From NCBI RefSeq assembly GCF_029265375.1, contig NZ_JAJUJJ010000009.1, positions 29,023 through 93,022 of the forward strand: a stretch of DNA of 64,000 nt, read 5' to 3'. Within the stretch, counting starts at the first letter, position 1; each line of letters starts with the position of its first letter. Shown piece by piece: positions 2,752-28,644 of the stretch. The notes beneath the pieces are model-generated. The model searched no databases, had not been told where the DNA came from, and saw nothing but the letters and a program-made list of their open reading frames with translations. Position numbers and translations under genes: made by a program. The DNA comes from Nesterenkonia sp. (GTDB lineage: Bacteria > Actinomycetota > Actinomycetes > Actinomycetales > Micrococcaceae).

Positions 2752-3996
2752 CTAGACCCGCGCGACCGCCCCGCTGCGGTAGCCGTCCAAGAACTCGGCG
2801 ATGGAGTCGATTGCGGTCTCCAGGTCCTCCACGCTGGGCAGAGTGACCAGGCGGAAGTGCTGGGAGTCGATCCAGTTGAACGCCCGGCCGTGGGAGACCA
2901 GGATCTTCTGCTGGCGCAGCAGCTCGATGACGAACTGCTGGTCGTCGTCGATGGGGTAGATCTCCGGGTCCAGCCGCGGGAAGAGGTAGAGCGCGCCGTC
3001 GGCCTTCTCCACTGTGACGCCCTCGATCTGCGCAAGCCGCTCATGGGCGGTGTTGCGCTGCTCGTAGAGCCGTCCCTGCGGAAGAATCAGATCCTCGATG
3101 GACTGGTGGCCGCCCAGTGCCGCCTGGATGGCGTGCTGGGCCGGGACATTGGCGCACATGCGCATATTCATCAGCAGCGCCAGGCCCTCCAGGTAGTTCT
3201 TCGCCCGGTGGGTCGGTCCGGAGATGTAGATCCAGCCCGAACGGAAGCCGGCGACCCGCCAGGTCTTCGACAGCCCGGAGAAGGTCACAGTGAGCACGTC
3301 ATCGCTCAGCGTGCAGGCATTGACCATCTCCACCTGGTCGAAGGTGATGTTCTCGTAGATCTCATCGGCCAGCAGCATCAGGTCATGCCGCCGGCAGATA
3401 TCTACCAGCGCCTCCAGGACCTCCCGGGGGTAGACCGCCCCGGTGGGGTTGTTCGGGTTGATCAGCACCAGCGCCCTGGTCCGGTCGGTGACTTTGGACT
3501 CGATCTCCTCCGGATCCGGCCACCACCGGTTGGCCTCATCGCAGATGTAGTGCACCGGGGTGCCCCCGGCCAGTTTGGTGGCGCCGGTCCACAGCGGATA
3601 GTCCGGCGCGGGTATCAGCACCTCATCACCGGGCCCCAGCAGAGCAGTCAGCACCATGGAGATCAGCTCGGAGACTCCGTTGCCCAGCCAGACGTCCTCC
3701 GGTGAGGCGTCCTGCATGCCGCGGGTCTGGTAGTACTGGGCGATCGCCACCCGGGCGGAGTGGATGCCCTGGGAGTCCGAATATCCCTGCGCGGTGGGCA
3801 GCTCGCGGATCATAGTCTGCAGGATCGAATCCGGGGCCTCGAAGCCGAACGGCGCCGGATTGCCGATGTTCAGCCGGGTGATCCGGTGTCCTTCGCGCTC
3901 CAGACGGGCGGCCTCCTGGGCTATGGGTCCGCGCACGTCATAGCGGACAGAGGCGAGCTTGGGCGACTGGACGAACTCTTCAGCGAATGGGCGCAT
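2752..3996 (-). CDS. PLP-dependent aminotransferase (AlaA-like, class I/II)
   Basis: NPNNPTGAVYP, SGLSKTWRVAGFRSGW (PLP lysine region) and the rest of the fold; 414 aa. Confidence 0.93.
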   Translation of the reverse strand: MRPFAEEFVQSPKLASVRYDVRGPIAQEAARLEREGHRITRLNIGNPAPFGFEAPDSILQTMIRELPTAQGYSDSQGIHSARVAIAQYYQTRGMQDASPEDVWLGNGVSELISMVLTALLGPGDEVLIPAPDYPLWTGATKLAGGTPVHYICDEANRWWPDPEEIESKVTDRTRALVLINPNNPTGAVYPREVLEALVDICRRHDLMLLADEIYENITFDQVEMVNACTLSDDVLTVTFSGLSKTWRVAGFRSGWIYISGPTHRAKNYLEGLALLMNMRMCANVPAQHAIQAALGGHQSIEDLILPQGRLYEQRNTAHERLAQIEGVTVEKADGALYLFPRLDPEIYPIDDDQQFVIELLRQQKILVSHGRAFNWIDSQHFRLVTLPSVEDLETAIDSIAEFLDGYRSGAVARV

Positions 3997-22352: not shown

Positions 22353-22979
22353 TTACCGTGCTGGCAATGGCCTCCCGACAACTCCCGCAGAGCGCCCGCC
22401 GCAGCTGAGGCGCTGCTCTCTGACCCTGCGCCGAACCGGCACGGTGAGTCCCGCCAGCAGCGCAGCAGCCACACCGGCCGCCGCGGCCCATGTCGGCAGG
22501 GTATGCAGCAGCGTTCCTCCCCCAAGCACCCAGAGCGCGGCCCAGATCAGGGAGCCGGCGGCGGCCAGCAGCAGGAAGCGCGGGCTGCTGATCCCGGCGG
22601 CTCGGGCGGCGAGCGCCGCCGGGGTTCGGGCCCCGGGGAGGAGGCGCAGTCCGGCCACCGCCGCATCGCGTCCGTACCTCTGGCGCTGCAACCGCTGGGA
22701 CCACTTGTGGAGCCGCCCGGCAGCATGCGGCTTCTGCCGCATCCTCCGCAGCAGCGGGCCGGCGGCTCGGTGGGTCAGTGCGTCACCCAGCGTCATTCCT
22801 GCCGCGATGGCCACCACCGTGGTCAGCGGCGGGAGCGCCGCGGTGCTGACCAGGGCTGCTGCCGCCAGCGCGGTGGGCTCAGCCGGCCCCATCGGGATCG
22901 CCATCACCACCAGCAGGCTCAGCAGCAGTGCCCAGTGCGGCAGGGCCGGGCTGGAGGTCAGCTCAGACAGCCAGTCCAT
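22353..22979 (-). CDS. DedA/SNARE-associated family membrane protein
   Basis: Internal Met at 22979 gives MDWLSELTSS...; AALPPLTTVVAIAAGMTLGDALTH, GLRLLPGARTPAALAARAAGIS. Confidence 0.7.
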   Translation of the reverse strand: MDWLSELTSSPALPHWALLLSLLVVMAIPMGPAEPTALAAAALVSTAALPPLTTVVAIAAGMTLGDALTHRAAGPLLRRMRQKPHAAGRLHKWSQRLQRQRYGRDAAVAGLRLLPGARTPAALAARAAGISSPRFLLLAAAGSLIWAALWVLGGGTLLHTLPTWAAAAGVAAALLAGLTVPVRRRVREQRLSCGGRSAGVVGRPLPAR

Positions 22980-24189
22980 GCAGGCCCTTCCTGCGGTAGA
23001 CCGGGTCCGCCTCCGCCGCGCTGGTCTGCTGGGCCCCGGTGATGGCATCCCTGTAGTGCTCCAGGAGCAGGTCATTCACCGCTGTCCAGGAGGACGAGCC
23101 CAGCCCCTGGTGCGCCGCCTGGCCCAGTGACCGGCGCAGCGGGGCGTCCTGGGCCAGTCGGGCCACTGCGGCACGCAGCTCATCGAGCTTGCCGGGAGCG
23201 TAGTGCAGGCCGTTGATCCCGTGTGTGATCCGGTCCTTCAGTCCTCCGGCGCTGGGTCCTACGGCCGGCACCGCCGAGGCCAGTGCTTCCTGAACGGCCT
23301 GGCAGAAGGTCTCCTCGGCCCCGGTGTGCACAAAGATGTCCAGGCTCGCCAGGGTTTGGGCGAGCTGCTCGCCGTGCTGCTCCCCCAGGAAGAGCGCCCC
23401 GGGCAGCAGCTCCTTCAGGGCGCTGCGCTCCGGCCCCTCTCCCACCAGGACCAGTCGGATCCCTGGGATGCCGCTGATCGCCTGCAGGTGGTGGAGGTCC
23501 TTCTCCCTGGCCAGGCGACCCACATACCCCACCAGGACGTCCCCGGCGCAGCCGCCAGAGGGCTGTGCCAGCAGACGTGCCCGGAGGGACTCCGAACGGT
23601 TCTGCGGGGAGAACCGTGCCGTGTCGACACCTCGGGGCCAGAACCTTAGGCGCGGGATGCCCAGCTCCTGGAGCTGCTGGATGCTGGCGGCGGAGGGGGC
23701 CAGGGTCAGATCAGACTGGATGTGAATGCGCCGCAGCCGGTGGCGGATCAGCGCCTCGGTCGCACGCATCCGGTAGCGGCGGGCGAAGCCGACCACATCG
23801 GTCTGATAGATGCTGACCACGGGGATCTGCATGCTGTTGGCAGCCCGGACCGCTGCGTAGCCCAGCACGAACGGGGAGGCCACATGAACCACGTCTGGGC
23901 GGAATTCGGCCATCAGGCCCCGAAGCCTGCGGCGGGTGGCCATGCCGACGGTGAAACCGTCATAGCCGGGAAGGTCCAGGCCCCCAACTCGGTGCACCGG
24001 GGCGCCCGCGTACTGCGCAGGTCCGGTCGGGGCGATCACCGCAGCTGTGTGTCCGCGCTGGGCCAGATGCTCCAGGACTCGGCAGACGGAATTCGTGACC
24101 CCGTTGGTCTGCGGCAGAAAAGATTCGGTGACCACCAGCACGCGCAGGGACCGGCAGGCCAGCAGTTCTGAAGGAGGAGTTTCTCGCAT
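22963..24189 (-). CDS. Glycosyltransferase family 4 (MgtA-like mannosyltransferase)
   Basis: VVTESFLPQTNGVTNSV, FWPRGVDTARFSP, YVGRLAREKDLHHL, ETFCQAVQEALASAVPAVGPSAGG. Confidence 0.9.
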   Translation of the reverse strand: MRETPPSELLACRSLRVLVVTESFLPQTNGVTNSVCRVLEHLAQRGHTAAVIAPTGPAQYAGAPVHRVGGLDLPGYDGFTVGMATRRRLRGLMAEFRPDVVHVASPFVLGYAAVRAANSMQIPVVSIYQTDVVGFARRYRMRATEALIRHRLRRIHIQSDLTLAPSAASIQQLQELGIPRLRFWPRGVDTARFSPQNRSESLRARLLAQPSGGCAGDVLVGYVGRLAREKDLHHLQAISGIPGIRLVLVGEGPERSALKELLPGALFLGEQHGEQLAQTLASLDIFVHTGAEETFCQAVQEALASAVPAVGPSAGGLKDRITHGINGLHYAPGKLDELRAAVARLAQDAPLRRSLGQAAHQGLGSSSWTAVNDLLLEHYRDAITGAQQTSAAEADPVYRRKGLHGLAV

Positions 24190-24266
24190 ACCTTCACGCT
24201 ATGGAGGCCCGGAACTGCGCGGAATCCAGCTGCCTGCCGGTATCCAAGAGGATCCCTGCAGTCCTT

Positions 24267-24286
24267 CGGTGGAGGAAACTGCACCC
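24267..24286. promoter_or_regulatory. 20-bp dyad 77 nt upstream of glycosyltransferase start
   Basis: CGGTGGAGGAAACTGCACCC; near-identical to 27175..27194. Confidence 0.65.
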
Positions 24287-24300
24287 TGGCTTTCCGCGGT

Positions 24301-25131
24301 TCAGTCGGAGTAGGCGACCGTGATGTTCCCGCTGGTGGTCCGCAGGTCGATGATGGATCCGGCGTCGGGGTCTGTGGCGACCTCGATGCTGACCACGCTG
24401 CTGGAGGTGTCGGACAGAACGCGATAGTTCTGGCCCCGCGGAATCAGCACCTCTATATCCCCTGCGGTGGTCGAGACGCGGACCTGCGCCGGTGCTTCGG
24501 CGAATTCCAGCGAGATGCTGCCGGAGGTCTCCTGCGCTGTCACGTTGTCCGAGGTGAGGCCGATTCCGCGGATGCTGCCGCTGGTGGCTTCCGCTGTCAG
24601 GTCGCCGGAGACATCGTAGGCGGTGATGCTGCCGGAGGTGGTCTGCAGATCCGCTGCCCCGCCGATGTTCTCCACGGACACCGCCCCTGAGGTCAGGCTG
24701 ACCTCCACGGACGAGTCCGCGGGAACCGTCCCGTCATAGGTGATCCCGCAGCCCGGGGCGAACCACAGGGGGACGCCCTGGTGCCGGCATCCCAAATCCA
24801 CCGACCAGGTCTGGTCCTCCCAGGTCTCCTCGATTGCCGGCCGCTCGCTGGCATACCAGCTGGTGGCAAGCTCCGCGGTGGCCTCATCGGTCTGCGTCCC
24901 GATCAGCTCCACGTCTGCTCCGGCCCCGTCGATGGCCACCGTCTCAGGTGTCTGACCGCTGGACAGTGACGCTTGTCCGGTCTGTTCGCTCATCCCGCCG
25001 CCGGCCAGCAGCGACCAGGTCAGGAAGGCACCAACGGCCAGGAGTGCTGCTGTGAGCAGCCCTCCGAAGATCAGCCAGGCTCTGCGAACTGCCGGGGAGG
25101 CGTGCCCCGGTGTGCTGTGCGGCGTCGTCAT
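24301..25131 (-). CDS. DUF4097-type beta-strand repeat protein, membrane anchored
   Basis: N-terminal TM, then repeated TSGSI/TTAGDI motifs. Confidence 0.8.
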   Translation of the reverse strand: MTTPHSTPGHASPAVRRAWLIFGGLLTAALLAVGAFLTWSLLAGGGMSEQTGQASLSSGQTPETVAIDGAGADVELIGTQTDEATAELATSWYASERPAIEETWEDQTWSVDLGCRHQGVPLWFAPGCGITYDGTVPADSSVEVSLTSGAVSVENIGGAADLQTTSGSITAYDVSGDLTAEATSGSIRGIGLTSDNVTAQETSGSISLEFAEAPAQVRVSTTAGDIEVLIPRGQNYRVLSDTSSSVVSIEVATDPDAGSIIDLRTTSGNITVAYSD

Positions 25132-25805
25132 GGCTGTCTGCCTCCGCGGTCCGGGGTGCTGTTGGCGGCCAGGTACTGCAGCACTGCCAGTACGCGGCGG
25201 TTGGCGCTTCCGGTGGGCGGTATGCCCAGCTTGGTGAAGATGGCGTTGATGTGCTTGGTCACAGCAGATTCACTGAGGTAGAGCTCCTCGCATATTCCGG
25301 CGTTGGAGCGCCCCTGGGCCATCAGAGCGAGCACTTGGCGCTCACGGTCGGTCAGCTCCTCCACCGGATTGTCCCTACGCTGCCGGGTGAGCAGCTGGGA
25401 GACGACCTCCGGGTCCAGCACCGAGCCGCCGTCGCCGACCCGGCGGACCACGGAGAGGAACTCGTCCACATCTGCCACGCGGTCTTTGAGCAGATAGGCC
25501 ACCCCGGAGGTCTCCCCGGTCAGCAGCTCCACGGCATACCGCTCCTCCACATACTGGGAGAGCACGATGACGGCCAGTTCCGGATCGCGCTGACGCAGCT
25601 CCAAGGCTGCGCGGATGCCTTCGTCGGTGAAGCTCGGCGGCATCCGCACATCGACGATCACCAGGTCCGGTGCATGCTCCTCCACAGCGGGGAGCAGCTC
25701 GACGGCGGTGCCTACGGCGGCGGCCACCTCTATCTGCGCGAAGTCCAGCAGCCTGGCCAGGCCCTCGCGCAGCAGGACGGAATCTTCGGCAATGACTACG
25801 CGCAT
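25128..25805 (-). CDS. LuxR/NarL-family response regulator
   Basis: MRVVIAEDSVLLREGLARLL receiver, LVIVDVRMPP, C-terminal LTDRERQVLALMAQGRSNAGICEELYLSESAVTKHINAIFTKLGI. Confidence 0.95.
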   Translation of the reverse strand: MRVVIAEDSVLLREGLARLLDFAQIEVAAAVGTAVELLPAVEEHAPDLVIVDVRMPPSFTDEGIRAALELRQRDPELAVIVLSQYVEERYAVELLTGETSGVAYLLKDRVADVDEFLSVVRRVGDGGSVLDPEVVSQLLTRQRRDNPVEELTDRERQVLALMAQGRSNAGICEELYLSESAVTKHINAIFTKLGIPPTGSANRRVLAVLQYLAANSTPDRGGRQP

Positions 25806-27118
25806 GGCAGCTCCACTCTGATCTGGGTTCCCTCTCCGGGAAGGCTGGTCATATTCAGGGTTCCGTCCACGGATTCGACGCGCTGACGCAGTCCGGTCAG
25901 GCCGGTGCCGCGAGACTCCTCGGCGCCGCCGACCCCGTCATCGGACACCGTAATGCTCAGCGTCCGGCCGATGCGTCTGACAGTGACCTCGGCGTGCTTC
26001 GCCTGGGCGTGGGCAATGATGTTGTTGACCGCCTCAGAGACCACAAAATAGGCCACTGCCTCCACATCCAGGGAGGGCCGCTGGGGCACATCCACGGTGA
26101 CTGCCACCGGGAACGGGGCTCGGGAGGCGATGCCGGAGACCGCGGCGTCGAGCCCTCGGTCTTCCAGAACGGCCGGGTGCAGGCCCCGAACCAGGTGCCG
26201 GATCTCCTGCAGCGCGGACTGCACCTCGGCCTGGGCATGCTGGAAGGCGTCCTGAGTGTCCTGCGGGTCCACCGGCGTGCCCGAGGCTGCCGCCTTGACG
26301 TGCCGGCTGCGTTCGATACCCAGGTGTACGGCCAGGGCAGTGAGGCGCTGCTGAGCCCCGTCGTGCAGATTGCGCTCGATGCGGCGCCGCTCCGCGTCCG
26401 CTGCGGCCACCACGCCGGAGCGGGCTTGTGTGACCTGCTCGACCCGCTGGGCCAGTGCCGCTTTCTCATCCACTCCGTTGACCCACTTGACCAGCGCCAG
26501 ATCTGCTAGGGCGACGGCACGCAGGATCCATGGGGAGCCCAGCAGCAGAACGGCTCCGCAGATGATGAAGAGGACGTCGATCAGAGTCAGGATGCCGGCC
26601 GCGGGCTGGCCGGAGTTCAGGCGCAGACCCAGCAGCAGCGATGCCGGTCCGCCGACCAGGCAGGCCAGCACGACGCTGACCATGATCGGGCCCCACAGCA
26701 GACCCAGCAGGTGGTAGACCAGCAGCCGCAGGCCATAGGGACTCACACCCAGCATGGCCACTCTCCGCCAGCTCCACCGGCCTCGCTGGGGCTTGGGCAC
26801 GGAGGCGCTCATGAGTGCGGCGGCCCGTGAGCGGTGCAGCCGCCCGAAGAAGCAGCACAGGATGACAGTGGCCAGTCCGATCAGGCAGGCCAGCACGATC
26901 AGCGCGGCGCGGGCCGGCACGAAGATGTCCTCTTCTAAGAGTCCGGCGACCGGGTGGTTGAGCATCACCGTGGAAAGGATGGTGCTGACCAGGGCGAATA
27001 CACCGATCGCTGGGGAGCTTAAGATGAGGCCGCCGGTGGTCAGGTAGACGGCATGGTGCGCCATCCTGCGCAGTGCGCCGCGGCTGCGACCGGTGCGGAC
27101 GGCAGGGTCTGTGTTCAC
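25796..27118 (-). CDS. Sensor histidine kinase (HisKA_3 type); GTG start at 27118 preferred
   Basis: ERRRIERNLHDGAQQRLTALAVHLG, VVSEAVNNIIAHAQAKHAEV, DDGVGGA; overlaps the response regulator. Confidence 0.92.
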   Translation of the reverse strand: MNTDPAVRTGRSRGALRRMAHHAVYLTTGGLILSSPAIGVFALVSTILSTVMLNHPVAGLLEEDIFVPARAALIVLACLIGLATVILCCFFGRLHRSRAAALMSASVPKPQRGRWSWRRVAMLGVSPYGLRLLVYHLLGLLWGPIMVSVVLACLVGGPASLLLGLRLNSGQPAAGILTLIDVLFIICGAVLLLGSPWILRAVALADLALVKWVNGVDEKAALAQRVEQVTQARSGVVAAADAERRRIERNLHDGAQQRLTALAVHLGIERSRHVKAAASGTPVDPQDTQDAFQHAQAEVQSALQEIRHLVRGLHPAVLEDRGLDAAVSGIASRAPFPVAVTVDVPQRPSLDVEAVAYFVVSEAVNNIIAHAQAKHAEVTVRRIGRTLSITVSDDGVGGAEESRGTGLTGLRQRVESVDGTLNMTSLPGEGTQIRVELPCA

Positions 27119-27174
27119 TCTACGACCATATTCCAGCGGGCGGGGCTGCGGGATTGCAGCTGGCTCTGCGATCA

Positions 27175-27194
27175 CGGTGCAGAAAACTGCACCG
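27175..27194. promoter_or_regulatory. 20-bp perfect dyad 77 nt upstream of dedA start
   Basis: CGGTGCAG-AAAA-CTGCACCG. Confidence 0.7.
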
Positions 27195-27271
27195 CAGGCC
27201 GGGGCGAAGCTGCGCGCCGCTGTGGAGTCAGCTGGATTCTGCCCGCCCGGGAGGGTTCATAGCGTGAGGCT

Positions 27272-27937
27272 ATGCACGAGATTCTCAGCAGCATTGAGTC
27301 TGCCGTCGTCGCTCTTGGCCCCTCTCCCTGGCTGGTGGTGGCGGTTCTTGTCCTGTCCTGCGTCGACGGATTCTTTCCGCCGGTGCCGAGCGAGTCGGTG
27401 GTGATTGCCGCCGCCGTGCTGGCTGTGGCCGGCGATATGCCGGCCAGCTACCTGCTGCTGCTGGTGCTGGCTGCCGCTGTGGGCGCGTTCTTCGGCGACC
27501 TCATCGCCTATTGCATCGGTTCGCGGGTCCCGGTGGACCAGCTGCGGATGCTCCGCGGGCCCCGGGGCCGGGCAGCCCTCAGCGGGGCGAGAAGTGCGCT
27601 GGCGGCACACGGCGGCAGCATCATTCTGACCGGCCGGTTCGTCCCGGTGGGACGGGTGGCGGTGAATATGACCCTGGGGGCAGTGTGCTTCGGCTTCACC
27701 CGGTTCATGCCTCTGGCCTGCCTGGCCTCGGTGCTCTGGGCTGTCAGCTCCGCGGCAATGGGAGTCGGCGCAGGCCACCTGTTCAGGGACAGCCCGCTGC
27801 TGGCCATGGCCCTGGGGATCGTTGCCGGGGCGCTGATCGGGCTGATTCTGGATCGTCTGATCCGCACTGGCGAGAAGAGATTCTCCTTCCAGCGCCGGCG
27901 ATGGCCGCAGCGACGGGCGGTATGCTCGAATACGTGA
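27272..27937 (+). CDS. DedA family membrane protein
   Basis: DGFFPPVPSESVVIAAAVLA, FFGDLIAYCIGSR, ILTGRFVPVGRVAVNMTLG. Confidence 0.9.
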   Translation: MHEILSSIESAVVALGPSPWLVVAVLVLSCVDGFFPPVPSESVVIAAAVLAVAGDMPASYLLLLVLAAAVGAFFGDLIAYCIGSRVPVDQLRMLRGPRGRAALSGARSALAAHGGSIILTGRFVPVGRVAVNMTLGAVCFGFTRFMPLACLASVLWAVSSAAMGVGAGHLFRDSPLLAMALGIVAGALIGLILDRLIRTGEKRFSFQRRRWPQRRAVCSNT

Positions 27938-28644
27938 TCTCCCCCACAGGAAGACCATGGTTGGATGAGCTGGCAGCCTCCACCGGACGGTTCCGGGACG
28001 TGCTGGCCGCAGCGGAAGAGGACGACGGCGCCCTGGACTCACCGGTTGCCGCATGCCCGGAATGGGACCTGCGCGCACTCGGCGTCCACCTGGGGCAGAC
28101 CCACCTGTGGGCAGCGGGGATCGTGCAGGGCGCTGATCCGCGCCAACGCCCTCGGGATGAGCCCGCCGGGCAGAGCCTGAGCCGGTGGTACGCCTCCGCC
28201 GCGGAGGCGCTGCGCAAGGCCTTGGCCGAGGCCGGACCGGAGGCTCCCTGTTGGACATTGGTCCGGCACCAGGGCACGGCCCTGTTCTGGCAGCGCCGGC
28301 AGGTGCACGAAACCATGGTCCACCTCTGGGATGCCCACCACGCTGTGGGTCAGACCGCCGCTCTGGACCCGGCGCTGGCCTTCGACGGTGTGGCGGAGGT
28401 GGCCGAGGTGATGTATCCGCGCATGCTGCGCGCCAAGCGTGTGGAGCCGCTGCCGAAGCGTCTGGTCCTCACCGCCACGGATGTCGATGCCGATCCGGTG
28501 ACCATCGGTGAGGCGGAGCAGGCCGTGGCGGTGACCGCCCCGGCCGAGCAGCTGCTGCTGGTGGTGTGGCAGCGGATCCCCTGGAGGCAGCAGATGGGCC
28601 CAGCAGAGGCCGAGTCCCTGCTCAGCCGCGCTCTGGTCCCCTGA
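27922..28644 (+). CDS. Maleylpyruvate isomerase / DinB-like (TIGR03083-type) protein
   Basis: WLDELAASTGRF... VAACPEWDLRALGVHLGQTHLWA...; C-terminal MDMPI-like domain. Confidence 0.82.
   Translation: MLEYVISPTGRPWLDELAASTGRFRDVLAAAEEDDGALDSPVAACPEWDLRALGVHLGQTHLWAAGIVQGADPRQRPRDEPAGQSLSRWYASAAEALRKALAEAGPEAPCWTLVRHQGTALFWQRRQVHETMVHLWDAHHAVGQTAALDPALAFDGVAEVAEVMYPRMLRAKRVEPLPKRLVLTATDVDADPVTIGEAEQAVAVTAPAEQLLLVVWQRIPWRQQMGPAEAESLLSRALVP

Follow-up and report, generated by a model that had tools for sequence, protein, structure and literature searches.

A LuxR/NarL-type response regulator (RR) from Nesterenkonia probably activates three neighbouring transcripts through two short inverted repeats, or dyads, placed upstream of leaderless promoters. 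The locus lies in a 64,000-nucleotide stretch of the genome (hereafter, the window; Table 1), and the three transcripts are the operon of the RR itself, which also encodes its sensor histidine kinase (HK) and a LiaG-like protein, and two flanking pairs of genes, dedA1-MDMPI and GT4-dedA2. The DNA itself shows the dyads, how they are conserved and spaced, the promoter core and the order of the genes, and the regulatory module that these form is real and well conserved.

Table 1. Genes, operator dyads and promoter elements of the locus (window coordinates).
Feature	Coordinates	Strand	Remarks
DedA-family (VTT) protein 2, dedA2	22353..22979	-	PF09335 5.8e-10; overlaps GT4 stop
GT4 glycosyltransferase	22963..24189	-	Accessory paralogue of a copy conserved genus-wide
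GT4 core promoter	24187..24231	-	AGCTGGATTC 24231-24222; TAGCGT 24201-24196; leaderless ATG 24189
Operator dyad 2	24267..24286	none	CGGTGGAG-GAAA-CTGCACCC (full CGGTGGAGGAAACTGCACCC); between DUF4097 stop and GT4 start
DUF4097 (toastrack, LiaG-like) membrane-anchored protein	24301..25131	-	PF13349 2.3e-10; LiaG NF049997 1.1e-11, below cut-off
LuxR/NarL-type response regulator (RR)	25128..25805	-	Recognition helix SAVTKHIN
Sensor histidine kinase (HK)	25796..27118	-	Pfam HisKA_3, HATPase_c, weak PF13796 sensor
HK promoter and start	27116..27130	-	-10 TATGGT 27130-27125; 6-nt spacer; leaderless GTG 27118-27116; register also in other genera
Operator dyad 1	27175..27194	none	CGGTGCAG-AAAA-CTGCACCG (full CGGTGCAGAAAACTGCACCG); common to divergent HK and dedA1 promoters
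dedA1 core promoter	27230..27274	+	AGCTGGATTC 27230-27239; TAGCGT 27260-27265; leaderless ATG 27272
DedA-family (VTT) protein 1, dedA1	27272..27937	+	PF09335 1.8e-11; accessory paralogue
Mycothiol-dependent maleylpyruvate isomerase (MDMPI)-family protein	27922..28644	+	Overlaps dedA1 stop; same order in Nesterenkonia genome G299

The HK, RR and DUF4097 genes overlap at their ends and should therefore form one operon. A receiver-plus-GerE helix-turn-helix regulator adjoining a HisKA_3 kinase places the pair among the LuxR/NarL-type two-component systems (TCSs). Among NCBIfam models the HK resembles MctS, UhpB and LiaS, all below cut-off, and the nearest solved structures to the RR are VraR, DevR, other response regulators and NarL. 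Both DedA proteins belong to the DedA/VTT family, with PF09335 scores of 45.0 and 40.1 bits against a gathering score of 33.9. DedA proteins include undecaprenyl-phosphate translocases, and dedA1 weakly resembles one family member, UptA, at a level (3.9e-9; 36.8 bits against an NCBIfam equivalog cut-off of 300) that leaves it outside that group. Every member of the genus has a DedA copy that is more distant, and a GT4 copy at 45-50% identity occurs in nearly all; dedA1 and the GT4 of the window are thus extra paralogues. The MDMPI gene, given its overlap with dedA1, is probably on one transcript with it and is likely to be part of the regulated unit.

Both dyads reported by the first-pass annotation are present, at 27175-27194 and 24267-24286, and, as had been stated, the distance from the end of each to an ATG (27272 on the + strand, 24189 on the - strand) is exactly 77 nt. 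Each is a 7-4-7 inverted repeat, the second with one mismatched arm position (GGTGGAG/CTGCACC). Scanning the window with CGGTGSAGRAAACTGCACC at up to three mismatches gave three matches against 0.05 expected, the exact ones being the two dyads only, and GGTGNAGNAAACTGCACC has no exact match in the 2.72-Mb genome other than the two dyads; the dyads are therefore not chance occurrences. No other dyad or core combination was found as an upstream site in that genome, which has near-matches of the dyad at C50:9623 and C4:16872. Scans for additional regulon members at two mismatches returned counts comparable to those of a reversed-pattern control in most genomes, so we do not take such matches as regulon members. 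Across six genomes, GGTGNANNNNNNTNCACC recurred only at TCS-linked sites, with the remainder at control counts, and the other DedA and GT4 genes of the genus have no dyad at a consistent upstream place.

Inverted repeats can also act in RNA, and the second dyad sits only 14 nt past the DUF4097 stop codon, where a transcription terminator or other hairpin might be expected. We nevertheless regard such a role as very improbable, as neither dyad is followed by a T-run and a terminator scan was empty there, dyad 1 precedes the two divergent starts, and the conserved part consists of the GGTG...CACC letters held at a fixed distance from the -10 element.

The last 45 nt before each start had been described as conserved, and AGCTGGATTC-N19-ATAGCGTGARGSTATG is indeed found at both (27230-27274 on +, 24231-24187 on -). 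At dedA1 and GT4 the promoters carry, in exact register, the core of the wider promoter family, CAGCNGSATNC-N20-TAGCGT-N6-ATG. When six Nesterenkonia genomes were searched with a looser pattern, AGCNGSATNC-N(19-21)-TANNNT-N(4-8)-RTG, it recovered both promoters in G299 as well as in the window genome, with one extra match each in the window genome, where it is unrelated, and in G140. Alignment of the family promoters on their -10 elements reveals a common element around CAGCNGCATNC that ends 20 nt before TAGCGT; CAGCTGGATTC occupies exactly this place at dedA1 and GT4, which makes their promoters of the same core type.

A third promoter, that of the HK, was absent from the first-pass annotation and points to putative autoregulation, with the dyad at 27175 lying 57 nt upstream of GTG 27118. 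(This distance is counted from the 18-nt dyad core; that to dedA1 is 77 nt from the 20-nt dyad and 78 from the core.) The most likely HK start is this GTG, six bases past TATGGT, which puts dyad 1 between two divergent leaderless promoters. The HK promoter follows the rule of a wider class (GGTG-N10-CACC, 44-46 nt, TANNNT, 5-8 nt, start codon), with 45 nt, TATGGT, 6 nt and GTG, whereas dedA1 and GT4 depart from it in operator distance, 66 instead of 45 nt, with the core in register. Taking the start at the leaderless GTG, the dyad is centred at about -66.5 at the HK promoter. The earlier estimate that the dyad lies near -65 if transcription begins at the ATG is wrong for dedA1 and GT4, where its centre is at -87.5, or 20-21 bp further out. 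As this shift amounts to two turns of B-DNA, the regulator would stay on the same face of the helix. By their sequence, the dedA1 and GT4 promoters would be a two-turn-shifted variant of an RR-dependent leaderless promoter class.

Five other Nesterenkonia genomes carry a full orthologous TCS, one with 71% HK identity (G299) and four with 40-51% (G221, G140, G303 and G298). In each of them the dyad immediately precedes the HK, whatever the other neighbours, which bears out the expectation that it would track this TCS across related genomes. In G298 the HK (L043, 2627-4023) is split over two frames, with the open reading frame ending at 3757 and the remainder matching another frame; this represents a frameshift, a pseudogene or an assembly error, and the contig is short. 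Among 298 genomes of the family, exact GGTGNAGNAAACTGCACC is confined to three: the window genome, G140, where it precedes the HK, and G288, where it falls in a coding region. We rejected the last as a regulatory site, as it lies inside a reading frame in another genus with no TCS found nearby and is attributable to chance. Judged by conservation, the conserved role of the 27175 dyad is that of an HK operator.

Only G299 also keeps dedA1-MDMPI, GT4-dedA2 and the second dyad; the neighbours differ in the other four genomes. Between the window and G299 the dyads are identical at 18/18 and 17/18 positions and the core motifs have been preserved, with drift in the linkers (23/35 and 26/35). The proposal of an RR regulon that links the TCS to DedA and GT4 genes thus holds in part: the dyad tracks the TCS, and both dyads and the layout are preserved in G299, but the main conserved role is that of HK operator and the DedA/GT4 branch is confined to two species. 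One could argue that the RR governs its own operon only, and that the dyads before dedA1 and GT4 are bystanders, arising from shared divergent position or promoter-region copying, without strong regulation. The HK position alone is conserved beyond these two species, and operators at -87.5 were seen in these two only, with no class-wide enrichment among the matches listed. We consider this reading quite unlikely, however, because the GT4 dyad is separate from the HK, stands at the dedA1 distance and is retained in G299 with its core despite linker drift, and because the core at dedA1 and GT4 matches RR-type promoters elsewhere.

The association of dyad and HK extends well beyond the genus. In the best 80 RR-homologue loci in GTDB genomes, GGTG-N10-CACC is 15-fold enriched around the HK start, with 38 occurrences in 68 kb versus 28 in 750 kb (56 per 100 kb versus 3.7 elsewhere). 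Gaps of 6-9 and 11-14 between the GGTG and CACC arms showed no comparable excess in these loci, and about half of the 80 have no such motif upstream of the HK. At DUF4097-bearing loci, which come from Glycomyces, Phytoactinopolyspora, Haloactinopolyspora, Haloechinothrix, Actinomadura roseirufa, Micromonosporaceae and Thermoleophilia, TANNNT begins 44-46 nt past the dyad, with an in-frame start codon at 56-59 nt in most of them; the same register with a leaderless start is also listed for Jiangellaceae loci. The recurrence of this -10 register in many taxa supports the earlier suggestion that transcription is probably leaderless.

Variation among these loci is also informative. The Actinomadura loci L076-L130 carry the operator GGTGGGG-TTAG-CCCCACC, and their HK genes are leadered rather than leaderless: a CACGCT/CAGGCT hexamer lies near the -10-like offset (45 nt in L077), and the start of translation is some 30 nt further on, preceded by a GGAGG that resembles a Shine-Dalgarno sequence. 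That the hexamer offset is kept while the start codon has moved suggests that promoter position, not the start codon, is conserved. In Phytoactinopolyspora and Haloechinothrix, a gene for a secreted protein diverges from the HK and starts 57-58 nt from its dyad, so that the sharing of a dyad by two promoters is seen outside the window as well. A conserved GCTACSGACAC block occurs on the far side of the HK dyad in L061 and L072, and probably in L066 and L092; on that side L061 and L072 also have a divergent gene for a secreted protein, whose start is 57-58 nt distant. At Nocardia loci (L135, 2982-5010; also L133 and L138), a related HK-RR pair that lacks DUF4097 is immediately preceded by a DedA gene, which makes a second case of DedA next to a TCS, and the GGTG-N10-CACC dyad was not found there.

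We also searched 395 genomes of the class for the dyad followed by TANNNT and a start codon, with the gap behind the dyad allowed to vary over 40-70. Among the 49 matches listed, 19 have a total length of 78, 79 or 80, with about one for each other length. The genes behind this peak encode HKs, ABC ATPases, carboxylesterase-like, YceI-like and secreted proteins, as judged by eye except for the HKs, which are BLAST matches. As the peak includes non-TCS genes, the motif-plus-distance rule extends past TCSs of the window type. ABC-transporter ATPase genes at L241, L243 and L244, in three genomes, are leaderless, with 44 nt and TAGCGT after GGTGGAGGAAAGTGCACC-type dyads; L241 has an HK-like match at one edge. 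These sequence patterns point to a leaderless promoter class that is widespread in Actinomycetota and apparently undescribed. Our literature search, mostly outside subscription journals, found no paper that deals with the GGTG-N10-CACC motif or with a comparable DedA-linked TCS.

Many of the matches listed precede genes without a recognisable relative of the window RR within 4 kb, which means that other regulators may use the same motif. The dyad could thus be bound by a different regulator sharing the motif, or the RR could be a repressor; the presence of the motif in leaderless geometry before ABC-transporter genes, with no RR relative found nearby, fits the former, and an upstream dyad by itself leaves the sign of control unfixed. 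Both seem unlikely to us given that the dyad lies upstream of, and not over, the -10/-35 region, the usual place of an activator, that the promoters have no recognisable -35 (no sigma-70-like site was found in 24100-27400), and that the motif is tied to the HK starts of the window TCS family.

Binding of the dyad by the RR is consistent with how regulator and operator vary together. In the position preceding the K-H pair, the recognition helix carries E in 25/25 RRs whose operator has G/G at position 6 (E with GGTGGG) and S, A or T in 19/19 with A/A (S/A/T with GGTGNA); five sites have a mixed pair. This covariation agrees with direct reading of the operator by the RR. We rejected it as independent proof of binding, as the tree needs one change only and shared ancestry may account for it.

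From these observations we infer binding by the RR, activation and a transcription start at the ATG, with envelope stress as the presumed signal. The dyad would be the binding site of the LuxR/NarL-type RR encoded between its two copies. On activation of the kinase, an RR dimer would occupy the dyad and activate leaderless promoters that pair a TANNNT -10 with a weak -35 region (CAGCNGSATNC). The HK-RR-DUF4097 operon would be under positive autoregulation, driven from the dyad centred at -66.5. For dedA1-MDMPI and GT4-dedA2, the dyads, centred at -87.5, would act from a position more distant by 21 bp, or two helical turns, and on the same DNA face. The regulon would be local, comprising the three transcripts around the TCS, and the accessory DedA and glycosyltransferase copies would thereby join an envelope response. 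An envelope function of the TCS is plausible only by analogy, considering the translocases known in the DedA family, the LiaG-like protein beside a NarL-type TCS and the membrane-stress roles proposed for neighbourhoods of toastrack proteins and TCSs, those of Actinobacteria included (PMC11237479).

The combination of operator, fixed distance and leaderless core offers a sequence rule with which the regulons of uncharacterised actinobacterial TCSs could be read from genomes. The window would provide a concrete case, in which DedA-type membrane proteins are controlled by a dedicated envelope-type TCS; to our knowledge, little is known about how such proteins are regulated. More tentatively, a wide actinobacterial class of RR-activated leaderless promoters (GGTGNA-N6-TNCACC, CAGCNGSATNC, TAGCGT, ATG) might serve many LuxR-type TCSs as well as ABC-transporter and secreted-protein genes, and the two-turn operator shift in Nesterenkonia might have added operons for DedA lipid-translocase-like proteins and a lipid glycosyltransferase, connecting a LiaG-type TCS directly to lipid-carrier flipping.

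Several described systems share features with this one. At CRP class I promoters, activator sites work from several upstream positions that are whole helical turns apart; CRP belongs to a protein family unrelated to the RR and is cited only as a model for -66.5 versus -87.5. BldM of Streptomyces is, like the RR, a LuxR-type regulator with a palindromic operator, but it is an orphan developmental regulator and its 16-bp operator is TCACcCgnncGgGTGA (PMC4125116). DevR/DosR of Mycobacterium and OsdR of Streptomyces are also LuxR/NarL-type and bind a short palindrome upstream of their own and neighbouring genes; in the sections of that work on which we draw, the consensus is the 16-nt AGGGCCGATCGGCCCT, as against 18-20 nt with GGTG-N10-CACC in the window, and the hypoxia/stress regulon is scattered over the genome, with no leaderless fixed-geometry class described (PMC5069765). 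The window operator, GGTGCAG-N4-CTGCACC, is not a GGGNC...GNCCC-type palindrome and falls outside the DevR/OsdR regulons. The LiaFSR and VraTSR systems of Bacillota are similar in their HisKA_3 kinase, NarL-type regulator and DUF4097/LiaG-like protein, and VraR and DevR are the nearest solved structures. The window locus differs from them in its sensor domain, its GGTG-N10-CACC operator and its apparent DedA and GT4 targets; neither LiaF nor PspA was found among the scanned proteins of the locus, and its LiaS and LiaG scores are far under their cut-offs (65 bits against 450 and 44.5 against 285). Although we do not class it as a member, the window TCS may work like LiaFSR/VraTSR.
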